DNA of 64,000 nucleotides, taken from assembly GCF_900129245.1 (NCBI RefSeq), contig NZ_FQUT01000001.1:682001-746000 (forward strand), written 5' to 3'. The DNA is from Chryseobacterium arachidis (GTDB lineage: Bacteria; Bacteroidota; Bacteroidia; Flavobacteriales; Weeksellaceae). Numbering within the stretch: the first letter of the stretch is position 1; each line of letters begins with the position of its first letter. The position numbers were made by a program, and so were the translations under genes. The notes beneath the pieces are model-generated. The model did no database searches. It was not told where the DNA came from and was given only the letters and a program-made list of their open reading frames with translations. Positions 31,922 to 34,834 of this stretch are shown here, in pieces.

Positions 31922-32383
31922 TCAATCCAGATCAATCTTAAACTTAGTAGACTTTTTCACCTCATGAAGCACGATAGAACTATGGTATTGCCCGATATTA
32001 GGAATATTTGAAATTACATTGACGGCAAATTCATTGTAAGAATTGATATCCTTTGCAATGATCTTCAACATATAGTCGTATTCACCGGAAAGACTGATGA
32101 TTTCCTGAACTTCATCGTGTTTACCAATGTTTTTCTCGAATGTTTCCAAAACTTTCTGAGATTGTTCTTTTAAACGGACATTGCAATAGACCACGATATT
32201 CAAACCTAATTTTTCACGGTTTAAAAGCCCGACATATTTCTCAATAATCCCGTTTTTCTCCAATTGCTTGATTCTTTCATAGGTTGGAGTAAAGGTAAGA
32301 CCAATCTTTTCCGAAATTTCTTTCACGGATAAAGTGGAGTCTTCCTGAATTATGCTGAGAATCATTCTGTCTTTTAAATCCAT
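31922..32383 (-). CDS. Lrp/AsnC family transcription regulator
   Basis: 153 residues: N-terminal winged HTH (DSTLSVKEISEKIGLTFTPTYERIKQLEKNGII) and C-terminal RAM/AsnC effector domain (VQEIISLSGEYDYMLKIIAKD). Such regulators respond to amino acids. It is transcribed divergently from pyrB with ~125 bp between, and lies next to the arginine operon, so it is a candidate regulator of either, but no binding site was defined. Confidence 0.92.
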   Translation of the reverse strand: MDLKDRMILSIIQEDSTLSVKEISEKIGLTFTPTYERIKQLEKNGIIEKYVGLLNREKLGLNIVVYCNVRLKEQSQKVLETFEKNIGKHDEVQEIISLSGEYDYMLKIIAKDINSYNEFAVNVISNIPNIGQYHSSIVLHEVKKSTKFKIDLD

Positions 32384-32470: not shown

Positions 32471-32501
32471 TTTGTCAGTTTGTAAAATTGTTGTATCTTT
32501 G
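32471..32501 (+). promoter_or_regulatory. promoter of the pyrB leader
   Basis: TTTG at 32471-32474, 19-bp spacer, TATCTTTG at 32494-32501: a near-ideal Bacteroidota promoter. Transcription should begin near 32506-32510, practically at the leader ATG (32508). Confidence 0.7.
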
Positions 32502-32507
32502 CACCTA

Positions 32508-32579
32508 ATGAATAACACAGTATTTATATCATTAGAATTACCGGGCGTAGACGCCCTTTACGATATTTATTTATTTTAA
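32508..32579 (+). CDS. 23-residue leader peptide of pyrB
   Basis: ATG at 32508, stop TAA at 32577-32579. The peptide begins MNNTVFISLELPG and ends YDIYLF. It starts a few bases after the expected transcription start, so its mRNA is nearly leaderless, and its stop overlaps the left arm of the terminator. It contains a 5-bp GC hairpin (32543-32556) followed by a U-rich run. It is not rich in one amino acid, so the control variable would be RNA polymerase speed (UTP) rather than charged tRNA. Role inferred by analogy with E. coli pyrL-pyrBI. Confidence 0.6.
   Translation: MNNTVFISLELPGVDALYDIYLF
32543..32556 (+). promoter_or_regulatory. candidate RNA polymerase pause hairpin in the pyrB leader
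   Basis: GGGCG-TAGA-CGCCC, perfect 5-bp GC stem, followed by the U-rich tract ATATTTATTTATTTT. In pyrBI of E. coli an equivalent hairpin plus U-run makes polymerase pause when UTP is low. Confidence 0.6.
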
Positions 32580-32607
32580 GCGAAGATATTTTCTTCGCTT
32601 TTTTTTT
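32578..32607 (+). terminator. pyrB attenuator terminator
   Basis: Perfect 9-bp stem AAGCGAAGA (32578-32586) / TCTTCGCTT (32592-32600), 5-nt loop, then a run making nine T in total. It lies inside the leader, 19 bp before the pyrB ATG, and its left arm includes the last bases of the leader stop codon. A ribosome ending the leader would cover the arm and prevent termination. Confidence 0.85.
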
Positions 32608-32626
32608 GTGAAAATTTGAAAATATT

Positions 32627-33517
32627 ATGTTTACAATTACAGAACTAAGCACCGAGAGAATCAACAGTATAGTAACAGAAGCGCTGGCTTTTGCCAACGG
32701 AAAAACTGCCAAAATAGAAGGCGAAGTTTTTTGTTCAAACCTTTTCTTCGAAGACAGTACAAGAACAAAGACAAGTTTTGATATTGCCGAAAGAAAATTA
32801 GGATTACAGGTTGTTCCTTTTGATGCATCTCACAGTTCGGTAAACAAAGGAGAAAGCCTTTATGATACGGTAAAAACTATTGAAAGTCTTGGAGTAAATC
32901 TTGTCGTAATCAGAGATAAGAAAGACCGGTATTTTGATGAATTAAAAAATATAAAGATTCCTATTATCAATGGAGGAGACGGAACAGGAAACCATCCTTC
33001 CCAATGTATGCTCGATTTAATGACGATCTATCAGGAATTCGGAAAGTTTGAGGGCTTAAAGGTGGGAATTGTAGGAGACGTAAAACACAGCCGGGTTGCC
33101 AATTCGAATGCAGAAGCATTGAGAAGATTAGGTGCAAAAGTATACTTTTCAGGACCCGAACAGTGGTTTGATGAAGGGGCTTTAATTAATGGAACTTATC
33201 TTTCAGTAGATGAATTAATTAATGAAGTTGATGTTTTAATGCTTTTAAGAATTCAACACGAAAGACACGATGCAAAAATGAGCTTCTCAGCTTCAGATTA
33301 CCACAGAAAATATGGTTTGACGAAAGAAAGAGAAAAAGCAATGAAAAAAGAAGCCATCATCATGCATCCGGCTCCAATCAACAGAGGAGTGGAAATTGAT
33401 ACAGACTTGGTGGAATGCGAACGCTCAAGAGTTTTCAAACAAATGCAAAACGGCGTTTTCGCGAGAATGGCAATCTTAAAAGAAGCCTTAGAAAAAGAGG
33501 GGTATACTTTTAAATAA
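32627..33517 (+). CDS. pyrB: aspartate carbamoyltransferase catalytic subunit
   Basis: 296 residues, in the range of Bacteroidota PyrB. The carbamoyl-phosphate loop is [12 protein letters not shown]; later parts are [26 protein letters not shown] and [12 protein letters not shown]. It makes carbamoyl-aspartate, the first committed step of pyrimidine synthesis. No pyrI regulatory gene lies next to it. Expression is probably set by the attenuator directly upstream. carA and carB, which make its substrate, follow on the same strand. Confidence 0.95.
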
Positions 33518-33556
33518 AAAGAGACAAGCTAAAAGAAATAAGTAAAAAGTTGGTGA

Positions 33557-33709
33557 GCCCCGAAGGGGCGAAATATCAATAGCCGCGGGTGAAACCCGTG
33601 GAAAACAAAAAGAGATAAAGATTATCCAAGCCCCAGAGGGGCAACCTATTAATAGCCATGGGTGAAACCCATGAAACAAAGATAGAGATTAAAAGAGCTC
33701 TGTAGGAGC
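33557..33709 (+). repeat. paired-hairpin elements between pyrB and carA
   Basis: Copy 1: GCCCC-GAA-GGGGC (33557-33569) and CCGCGGGT-GAA-ACCCGTGG (33583-33601). Copy 2: GCCCC-AGA-GGGGC (33630-33642) and CATGGGT-GAA-ACCCATG (33657-33673). Partial copy: GCTC-TGTAG-GAGC (33697-33709). Both arms have changed together relative to the argG/argC copies, so pairing is conserved while sequence is not. Confidence 0.9.
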
Positions 33710-33760
33710 GATCTGTTAATGAAGATCAATAAAATAAATAATAAGAGATAAAAGTTTAAA

Positions 33761-34834
33761 ATGAAGAAAAAATTAATACTGGAGTCCGGTGAAGTGTTTC
33801 ATGGAGAAGGTTTCGGAGCAGAATTGGAAACGGCAGGAGAAGTGGTTTTCAATACCGGAATGACAGGGTATCAGGAACTGATTTCTGACCCATCTTATTG
33901 CGGTCAGATTGTGTGTATGACCTATCCATTAATCGGAAACTATGGGATTAATAGAGATGATTATGAGAGTATAGAACCGGCAATCAAAGGTCTTATCGTA
34001 AAAGAGCTTTGTGATTTGCCTTCAAATTTCCGTACTCAGATTACTTTAGATGAATTATTTAAAAAGAAAAACCTTTCAGGAATTTCAGGAATCGATACAA
34101 GAAGACTGACAAGAATTCTTCGTAACCATGGAGTTGTGAAAGGTAAAATCGTAAACGCTGATGCAGACGAAAGCACAGTAGTTTCAGAATTAAAATCAAC
34201 AAACTTCCCTACCAATCAGGTAGAGCAGGTTTCTACAAAAACGCCTTACGCAAATCCGGGAAGAGGGTTGAAAGTAGTATTGGTAGATTTTGGATCTAAA
34301 TTAGGAATTATCAGAGAATTATCTCAAAGAAACTGCGATATCACGGTAGTTTCTCAGGATGTAACTGCAGAAGAAATTTTACTGATGAATCCGGACGGAG
34401 TAATGTTGTCAAACGGTCCTGGCGACCCGGAAGATAACCAACAAGCTCTTGAAATGATTAACGGAATTCTAGGAAAAGTTCCGATTTTCGGAATCTGTTT
34501 AGGACACCAATTGATCGGTTTGGCTTGTGGAGCCAAAACTTTCAAATTAAAATTCGGACACAGAGGAGGAAACCATCCGGTGTTGGATTTAGAGAAAAAC
34601 AAAGTGGCCATCACTTCTCAGAACCACGGTTATGCAGTTGATCAGGAAAGTTTAAAAGGTACAGATTTAATTGAAACTCACATCGCCTTGAACGACAGAA
34701 CAAACGAAGGTCTGAAACACAAAATTCACCCTTGTTTCTCAGTTCAATATCACCCGGAAGCAAGTCCAGGCCCTGAAGATGCGAACTATTTATTTGATGA
34801 GTTTATCCAGTTAATGGAAGATTTTAAAAAGTAG
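33761..34834 (+). CDS. carA: carbamoyl-phosphate synthase small subunit
   Basis: 357 residues. N-terminal CPSase_sm domain (FNTGMTGYQELISDPSYCGQIV) and C-terminal class I glutamine amidotransferase with the nucleophile in FGICLGHQLIGLACG and the His/Glu pair in VQYHPEASPGPED. It supplies ammonia from glutamine to CarB. The product feeds both PyrB and the acylornithine carbamoyltransferase. Repeat elements occupy the gap on either side. Confidence 0.96.
   Translation: MKKKLILESGEVFHGEGFGAELETAGEVVFNTGMTGYQELISDPSYCGQIVCMTYPLIGNYGINRDDYESIEPAIKGLIVKELCDLPSNFRTQITLDELFKKKNLSGISGIDTRRLTRILRNHGVVKGKIVNADADESTVVSELKSTNFPTNQVEQVSTKTPYANPGRGLKVVLVDFGSKLGIIRELSQRNCDITVVSQDVTAEEILLMNPDGVMLSNGPGDPEDNQQALEMINGILGKVPIFGICLGHQLIGLACGAKTFKLKFGHRGGNHPVLDLEKNKVAITSQNHGYAVDQESLKGTDLIETHIALNDRTNEGLKHKIHPCFSVQYHPEASPGPEDANYLFDEFIQLMEDFKK

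Follow-up and report, generated by a model that had tools for sequence, protein, structure and literature searches.

Attenuation of the pyrBI type is already known in enterobacteria, and in PyrR-dependent regulation of pyr genes the PyrR protein acts on the leader RNA. In E. coli, as outlined in a section of one report, abundant UTP allows RNA polymerase to outrun the ribosome on the pyrL leader and to terminate, and low UTP causes a pause on the U-rich template, with the coupled ribosome then preventing the terminator (PMC10135430). Control by reiterative transcription is mentioned for E. coli pyrBI in an extract of another article (PMC6245113), and clues for amino-acid leader-peptide attenuators in F. 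psychrophilum appear in part of a further study (PMC9723704). Our full-text literature searches, which had most subscription papers outside their reach, found no description of pyrB attenuation in Bacteroidota.

We analyzed a 64-kb stretch of Chryseobacterium arachidis DNA (the window, 64,000 nucleotides in all). Its presumed regulated gene, pyrB, encodes the catalytic subunit of aspartate carbamoyltransferase and occupies 32627-33517 on the plus strand (NCBIfam NF002032, 355.4 bits, cut-off 263); carA, encoding the small subunit of carbamoyl-phosphate synthase, lies downstream on the same strand (33761-34834; NCBIfam NF009475, 486.3 bits, cut-off 221), and CarB was likewise named with NCBIfam. 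Upstream of pyrB, and also on the plus strand, a Bacteroidota-type promoter was assigned by consensus only, with a -33 element TTTG at 32471-32474, a 19-nt spacer and a -7 element TATCTTTG at 32494-32501. The leader ATG (32508-32510) follows the -7 element by 6 nt. According to a portion of the F. psychrophilum study, TAnnTTTG lies at -12 to -5 in that species (PMC9723704), so transcription is predicted to start near 32506 here and to leave a 5′UTR of about 2 nt. The same portion reports that Shine-Dalgarno sequences are absent in the phylum and that leaderless mRNAs make up only 5.5% in F. psychrophilum (PMC9723704).

The leader ORF (32508-32579) consists of 23 codons and the stop TAA (32577-32579), and its predicted peptide is MNNTVFISLELPGVDALYDIYLF. 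A weak 5′ hairpin (32505-32535, CTAATG / CATTAG), which is present in part of the family, encloses the leader AUG. Within the ORF, a perfect 5-bp GC hairpin at 32543-32556 (GGGCG-TAGA-CGCCC, -7.9 kcal/mol) is a candidate pause hairpin, and the U-rich tract behind it (32557-32577) is a candidate UTP-sensitive pause region. An intrinsic terminator follows at 32578-32607, with a 9-bp stem (32578-32586 / 32592-32600), a 5-nt loop, a T tail to about 32607 and a folding energy of -12.1 kcal/mol; pyrB starts 19 nt past this tail. When 32471-32627 was re-read, the promoter, the 23-codon leader, the GC hairpin, the U-rich run and the terminator 19 bp before pyrB were all located where the preliminary description had placed them, as was its overlap of the leader stop with the left arm of the terminator, in that the stem opens with the final two bases of the stop TAA.

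The surroundings of the leader hold further features. An Lrp/AsnC-like gene runs divergently on the minus strand (31922-32383), sharing its intergenic region with the pyrB promoter; its best NCBIfam match is Lrp, at 108.7 bits and under the cut-off of 233. The gap between pyrB and carA (33518-33760) carries the GC-rich inverted repeats gccccgaaggggc and gcgggtgaaacccg, and the minus strand at 33556-33601 matches Rfam Acido-Lenti-1 at 28.4 bits, under the gathering score of 37.

The closest described system is pyrL-pyrBI of E. coli, which likewise has a leader ORF between a promoter and an intrinsic terminator before pyrB. In the MG1655 sequence, the pyrL hairpin GCGTC..GACGC is followed after 10 nt by UUUUUCUUCCC, and a corresponding U peak lies at +10 to +19 behind the hairpin here, a likeness at the level of sequence. 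The way hairpin and U tract are spaced agrees with the claim that this locus is built from the same parts as E. coli pyrBI. The two systems also differ: the leader has 23 codons instead of 44, its 5′UTR is predicted to be 2 nt, and hairpin and terminator are separated by 21 nt instead of 38 nt. The pyrL frame reads through the terminator, whereas the leader here usually stops on the left arm, although six relatives share the E. coli arrangement with a leader that reads through (L133, L137, L138, L139, L187 and L177). Unlike in E. coli pyrBI, no pyrI was found, since a profile search of the C. arachidis genome did not detect PyrI_C (7 of 14 control genomes were positive). The predicted start has no T run and therefore gives no sign of reiterative-transcription control. 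On inspection, the leader letters differ from those of enterobacterial pyrL, and the origin of the element is probably independent of it.

We consider it likely that pyrB of C. arachidis is preceded by a UTP-sensitive, ribosome-coupled transcription attenuator of the pyrBI/pyrL type. The anatomy is observed; from it we infer the response to UTP, the pausing, the translation of the leader and a transcription start about 2 nt before the ATG. In the putative mechanism, transcription would start about 2 nt before the leader AUG. When UTP is ample, the polymerase would cross the U-rich tract fast, the terminator would fold before the ribosome arrives and most transcripts would end before pyrB. When UTP is scarce, the polymerase would stall while adding U residues 10-20 nt after the nascent GC hairpin, and the ribosome on the mini-ORF would catch up and halt where its stop codon meets the start of the left arm, covering this arm and allowing read-through into pyrB. 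The frame and the place of its stop would matter, and the peptide would not. The downstream footprint of a ribosome extends to as much as 12 nt, as stated in part of one study (PMC4833913), so that the 9-nt left arm would be hidden by a ribosome waiting at the stop. Bacteroidota are absent from the list of phyla classed with runaway transcription in the relevant section of another (PMC13323073), which is compatible with coupling.

The leader anatomy before pyrB is not a chance product. The segment 32503-32627 folds with a z of -5.2, and none of 200 shuffles reached a value as low. The scan pattern TAnnTTTG-N5..7-ATG followed by a 12-45-codon ORF with its stop at a terminator occurs once on both strands of the window, at the pyrB leader, and its promoter-ATG part occurs twice altogether. 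In 1.51 Mb of strand-bases from the fetched loci, in which loci of the same species repeat, 205 promoter-ATG sites and 158 complete anatomies were found, and the peptides of all 158 are those of pyrB leaders. A covariance model (R1) searched against the C. arachidis genome returned, besides pyrB (74.3 bits), a single other match (L220, 34.3 bits), which we rejected as a second copy of the leader, as it is an ordinary terminator that follows a gene of 99 aa. Of 9958 first-look candidates, 150 were scored, with a model that holds only the five pairs of the terminator, so further such leaders could be missed.

Within the genus, pyrB is present in 98 of 98 genomes. One of them (G063, 75% complete) has a pyrB match interrupted by stops, perhaps through sequencing errors. 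Leader and terminator precede pyrB in 80 of 80 close-relative loci (79 from Chryseobacterium and one from a Weeksellaceae MAG), and promoter and leader start were found in all 38 further genus loci checked, including that of the window; the two sets overlap in species. The leader and terminator stem of the window recur letter for letter in 24 loci, its own included. One genus locus (L044) has a tail 4 nt shorter and, judged by eye, a frame that stops in the terminator loop.

A match to this PyrB was obtained in 66 of the 90 genomes of the family sample: the genus accounts for 6, G152 and G166 for one each, and the remaining 58 supply 59 loci (G109 counted twice). We left out the partial gene of G152 (L195), as its contig does not reach into the upstream region, together with G166, whose weak match is a paralogue, and L002, also a paralogue. 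A promoter, an ATG leader and a terminator precede pyrB in 54 of 54 family loci outside genus g17, which represent 24 genera other than Chryseobacterium; 53 were scored by script and L177 by reading, and L177 enters no statistic because the script missed it. Most of these leaders stop at the terminator stem. A stricter script accepted 47 of the 59 loci; it missed all five g17 loci, the six leaders that read through, and L119, for which it had picked the wrong terminator. In genus g17, PyrB is 51-53% identical and the terminator is a different one, which in four of five loci (L190, L192, L193 and L194) is crossed by a long open frame from a possible TTG start; in the fifth (L191), neither leader nor terminator was seen. 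Taking Chryseobacterium, the 54 loci and the g17 form together, the element exists in some form in all 26 genera in which a pyrB of this type was read. The leader letters have diverged widely across the family despite the same anatomy. Outside the family, PyrB identity is at most 47% among the matches listed from 296 genomes of the phylum.

Some genomes of the sample stand apart. The 24 of 90 with no match to this PyrB include all those sampled from g10, g19, g28 and g29, four of five from g21 and four others; they may have lost pyrimidine synthesis, use a different pyrB or be incompletely sequenced. Two pyrB genes lie on different contigs of G109 (L135 and L185, with 75% and 63% identity to the query), each behind a leader of its own, and contamination is possible. 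In L134, the terminator lies 123 nt from pyrB, about 100 nt more than usual.

To ask what is kept in the leader, we thinned 89 distinct leader-plus-terminator sequences (48 from the family and 41 from the genus, 8 of the latter entering the thinning) at 0.93 similarity to a set of 40, 4 of them from the genus. The leader frame is open up to the stem in 33 of the 40, compared with 2 and 10 for the other two frames; 1000 mononucleotide shuffles gave 5.75 on average and never more than 14. In 22, the stop falls exactly 1 nt ahead of the first base of the stem. Of the remaining 18 stops, 11 fall within or beyond the stem and 7 precede it by 4-16 nt; the most distant, that of L134, is 16 nt away and near the limit of ribosome cover. 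Purifying selection on the amino acids was not evident in a synonymous-share test, which gave 0.24 against an expected 0.20 for 16 leaders of other genera and 0.10 against 0.19 for 35 genus leaders. A weak hint of peptide selection comes from codons 5-10 of the 16 leaders (0.32 against 0.21), and selection on the recurring P-L-D-D motif is weak at most. We rejected a nascent-peptide arrest leader, as no conserved peptide with a synonymous preference was found. Selection thus appears to act on the open frame and the position of its end and not on the peptide, which fits a blocking role of the ribosome and makes an arrest peptide or codon-specific sensing less likely.

These observations also bear on a coupled attenuator that answers to a signal other than UTP, such as the availability of charged tRNA (Asn, Tyr, Phe or Ile) or the general rate of translation. 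The parts needed for coupling would be identical, and of the 48 distinct leaders from other genera, 11 contain N-N-N-I. Chryseobacterium leaders, however, have D-I-Y or N-I-Y in place of an Asn run, and selection on the amino acids is not clear. Moreover, pairing of the leader with the left arm of the terminator was no better than in shuffles across the 40 leaders (mean z 0.07; 1 of 40 below -2). In the absence of such an antiterminator, a ribosome stalled early would lower expression, which is the wrong sign for a biosynthetic gene under amino-acid starvation. The trp/his type shares a short leader ORF, a terminator and the coupling of translation to transcription with this locus; since the locus has no antiterminator and no conserved codon run for an amino acid of the pathway, we rejected an amino-acid leader attenuator and regard non-UTP signals in general as unlikely.

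For a UTP-sensitive attenuator, the composition of the RNA ahead of the terminator is informative. U makes up on average 61.6% of the last 16 nt before the stem and 31.6% of the first 30 nt after the ATG, and is higher before the stem in 39 of 40 leaders. Seven ordinary terminator-like stems, all of them in the window, average 34% T upstream, with two of the seven at 50% or more. The best hairpin ends a median of 21 nt before the stem, and it ends 14-26 nt away in 31 of 40 leaders, compared with 21% of shuffles, and outside this range in 9. Among the 31, U is low over the first 9 nt behind the hairpin and then high from +10 to +19, reaching 94% at +14. Pause hairpins act when they lie some 10-12 nt upstream of the RNA 3′ end. 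A 10-nt spacer is also used in the pause-hairpin work described in part of one article, which states further that the E. coli pyrL pause depended neither on NusA nor on stem restoration (PMC9291695); this counts against a pausing role of the hairpin here.

The hairpin itself is conserved in place more than in letters, its stem and loop differing between genera. Its mean score (13.65 compared with 11.77 for shuffles; 33 of 40 leaders exceed the mean of their own shuffles) is a modest excess, and in L125 and L135 no hairpin of 4 bp was found before the terminator. RNAalifold on alignment A1 recovered the terminator alone, because MAFFT loses the register of the hairpin. In 20 of the 40 sequences, picked because they could be aligned, pairing holds in 82.8% of the hairpin cells, and 2 of 5 pairs show two-sided changes. 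When hairpin and terminator are taken jointly, the covariation score of these 20 leaders was reached by none of 500 shuffles and 93.9% of cells pair, compared with 23-54% in slid controls; pairs with two-sided changes number 4, hardly above the 1-3 of the controls. The preliminary description had expected the leader frame, the overlap of stop and terminator and both hairpins to be kept among relatives. Alignment across genus and family agrees for the frame, the overlap and the terminator, but the hairpin is kept less strictly, and its putative role in pausing is the weakest and least certain part of our reading.

A terminator with a constant setting, in which translation fixes the fraction of read-through and no metabolite is sensed, would look much the same, since anatomy alone cannot separate a constant from a variable terminator. 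Such a throttle, however, would need no conservation of the U tract or of its spacing behind the hairpin, and the element is found in some form in all 26 genera read, with no PyrR over the cut-off. We therefore consider it quite improbable.

The race between polymerase and ribosome that we propose for UTP sensing might also be tuned at its start. The 5′ hairpin of the window is weak, at -3.2 kcal/mol, and 19 of 200 shuffles are at least as stable. Pairing of at least 5 bp that includes the AUG was found in 23 of 40 leaders, with a shuffle p<0.05 in 13 of 40, and some of these hairpins have letters changed on both sides (CAATG / CATTG). A hairpin over the AUG might delay the entry of the ribosome.

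In PyrR-dependent regulation, as here, control of pyr genes lies in the leader RNA; the difference is that this leader RNA carries an ORF instead of being bound by a protein. A flavobacterial PyrR query matched none of the 90 family genomes, and it matched 76 of 105 genomes of the order outside the family at E<=1.2e-47 (counted by eye). The curated PyrR model NF003549 likewise had no match over the cut-off in the 90 genomes, the best reaching 37 bits against 138; weaker matches in 71 of 90 are as expected from other phosphoribosyltransferases, and 6 of 14 control genomes were over the cut-off. Among best-scoring loci, which are not a random draw, PyrR adjoins pyrB in 16 of 16 read from other Flavobacteriales and in 16 of 23 from the wider phylum. 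The proposal that this pyrB is controlled without PyrR thus holds across the family sample, and PyrR-dependent regulation was rejected. Between 32300 and 33800, no Rfam family matched at its gathering score, the sole match being one at chance level on the opposite strand of the terminator (19.5 bits, gathering score 65), and a riboswitch or known cis-RNA was rejected as well. Control of the terminator by a trans-acting PyrR-like protein or a metabolite that binds the leader RNA would accord with the hairpin found before the terminator in most leaders, but it is very improbable given the differing hairpin letters, these negative searches and an open frame to the stop that would need no selection.

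Overall, the reading of pyrB control offered in the preliminary description is supported by the conserved sequence features. What appears to be new is the occurrence of such an attenuator in a separate lineage, with a nearly leaderless start and a stop on the terminator arm, throughout a family and in genomes without PyrR. We lean slightly towards the view that a lineage lacking PyrR arrived, independently of the enterobacteria, at a minimal UTP-sensing attenuator, in which a nearly leaderless mini-ORF can be entered as the RNA emerges and the AUG lies, in many species, inside a weak 5′ hairpin that could time the race. Its conservation would then be an indirect sign that ribosomes of Bacteroidota trail the polymerase closely enough to block a terminator. 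That a tiny frame ending in a terminator is kept family-wide, and that PyrR was not found, suggests that, like E. coli, members of the family read their pyrimidine supply from the outcome of a polymerase-ribosome race. This offers a plausible answer to how pyrimidine synthesis is controlled in a Bacteroidota family without PyrR, in the case of C. arachidis also without PyrI, and points to more than one origin of the "repression without repressor" logic of pyrBI. The leader may also serve as a small natural reporter of transcription-translation coupling in Bacteroidota.
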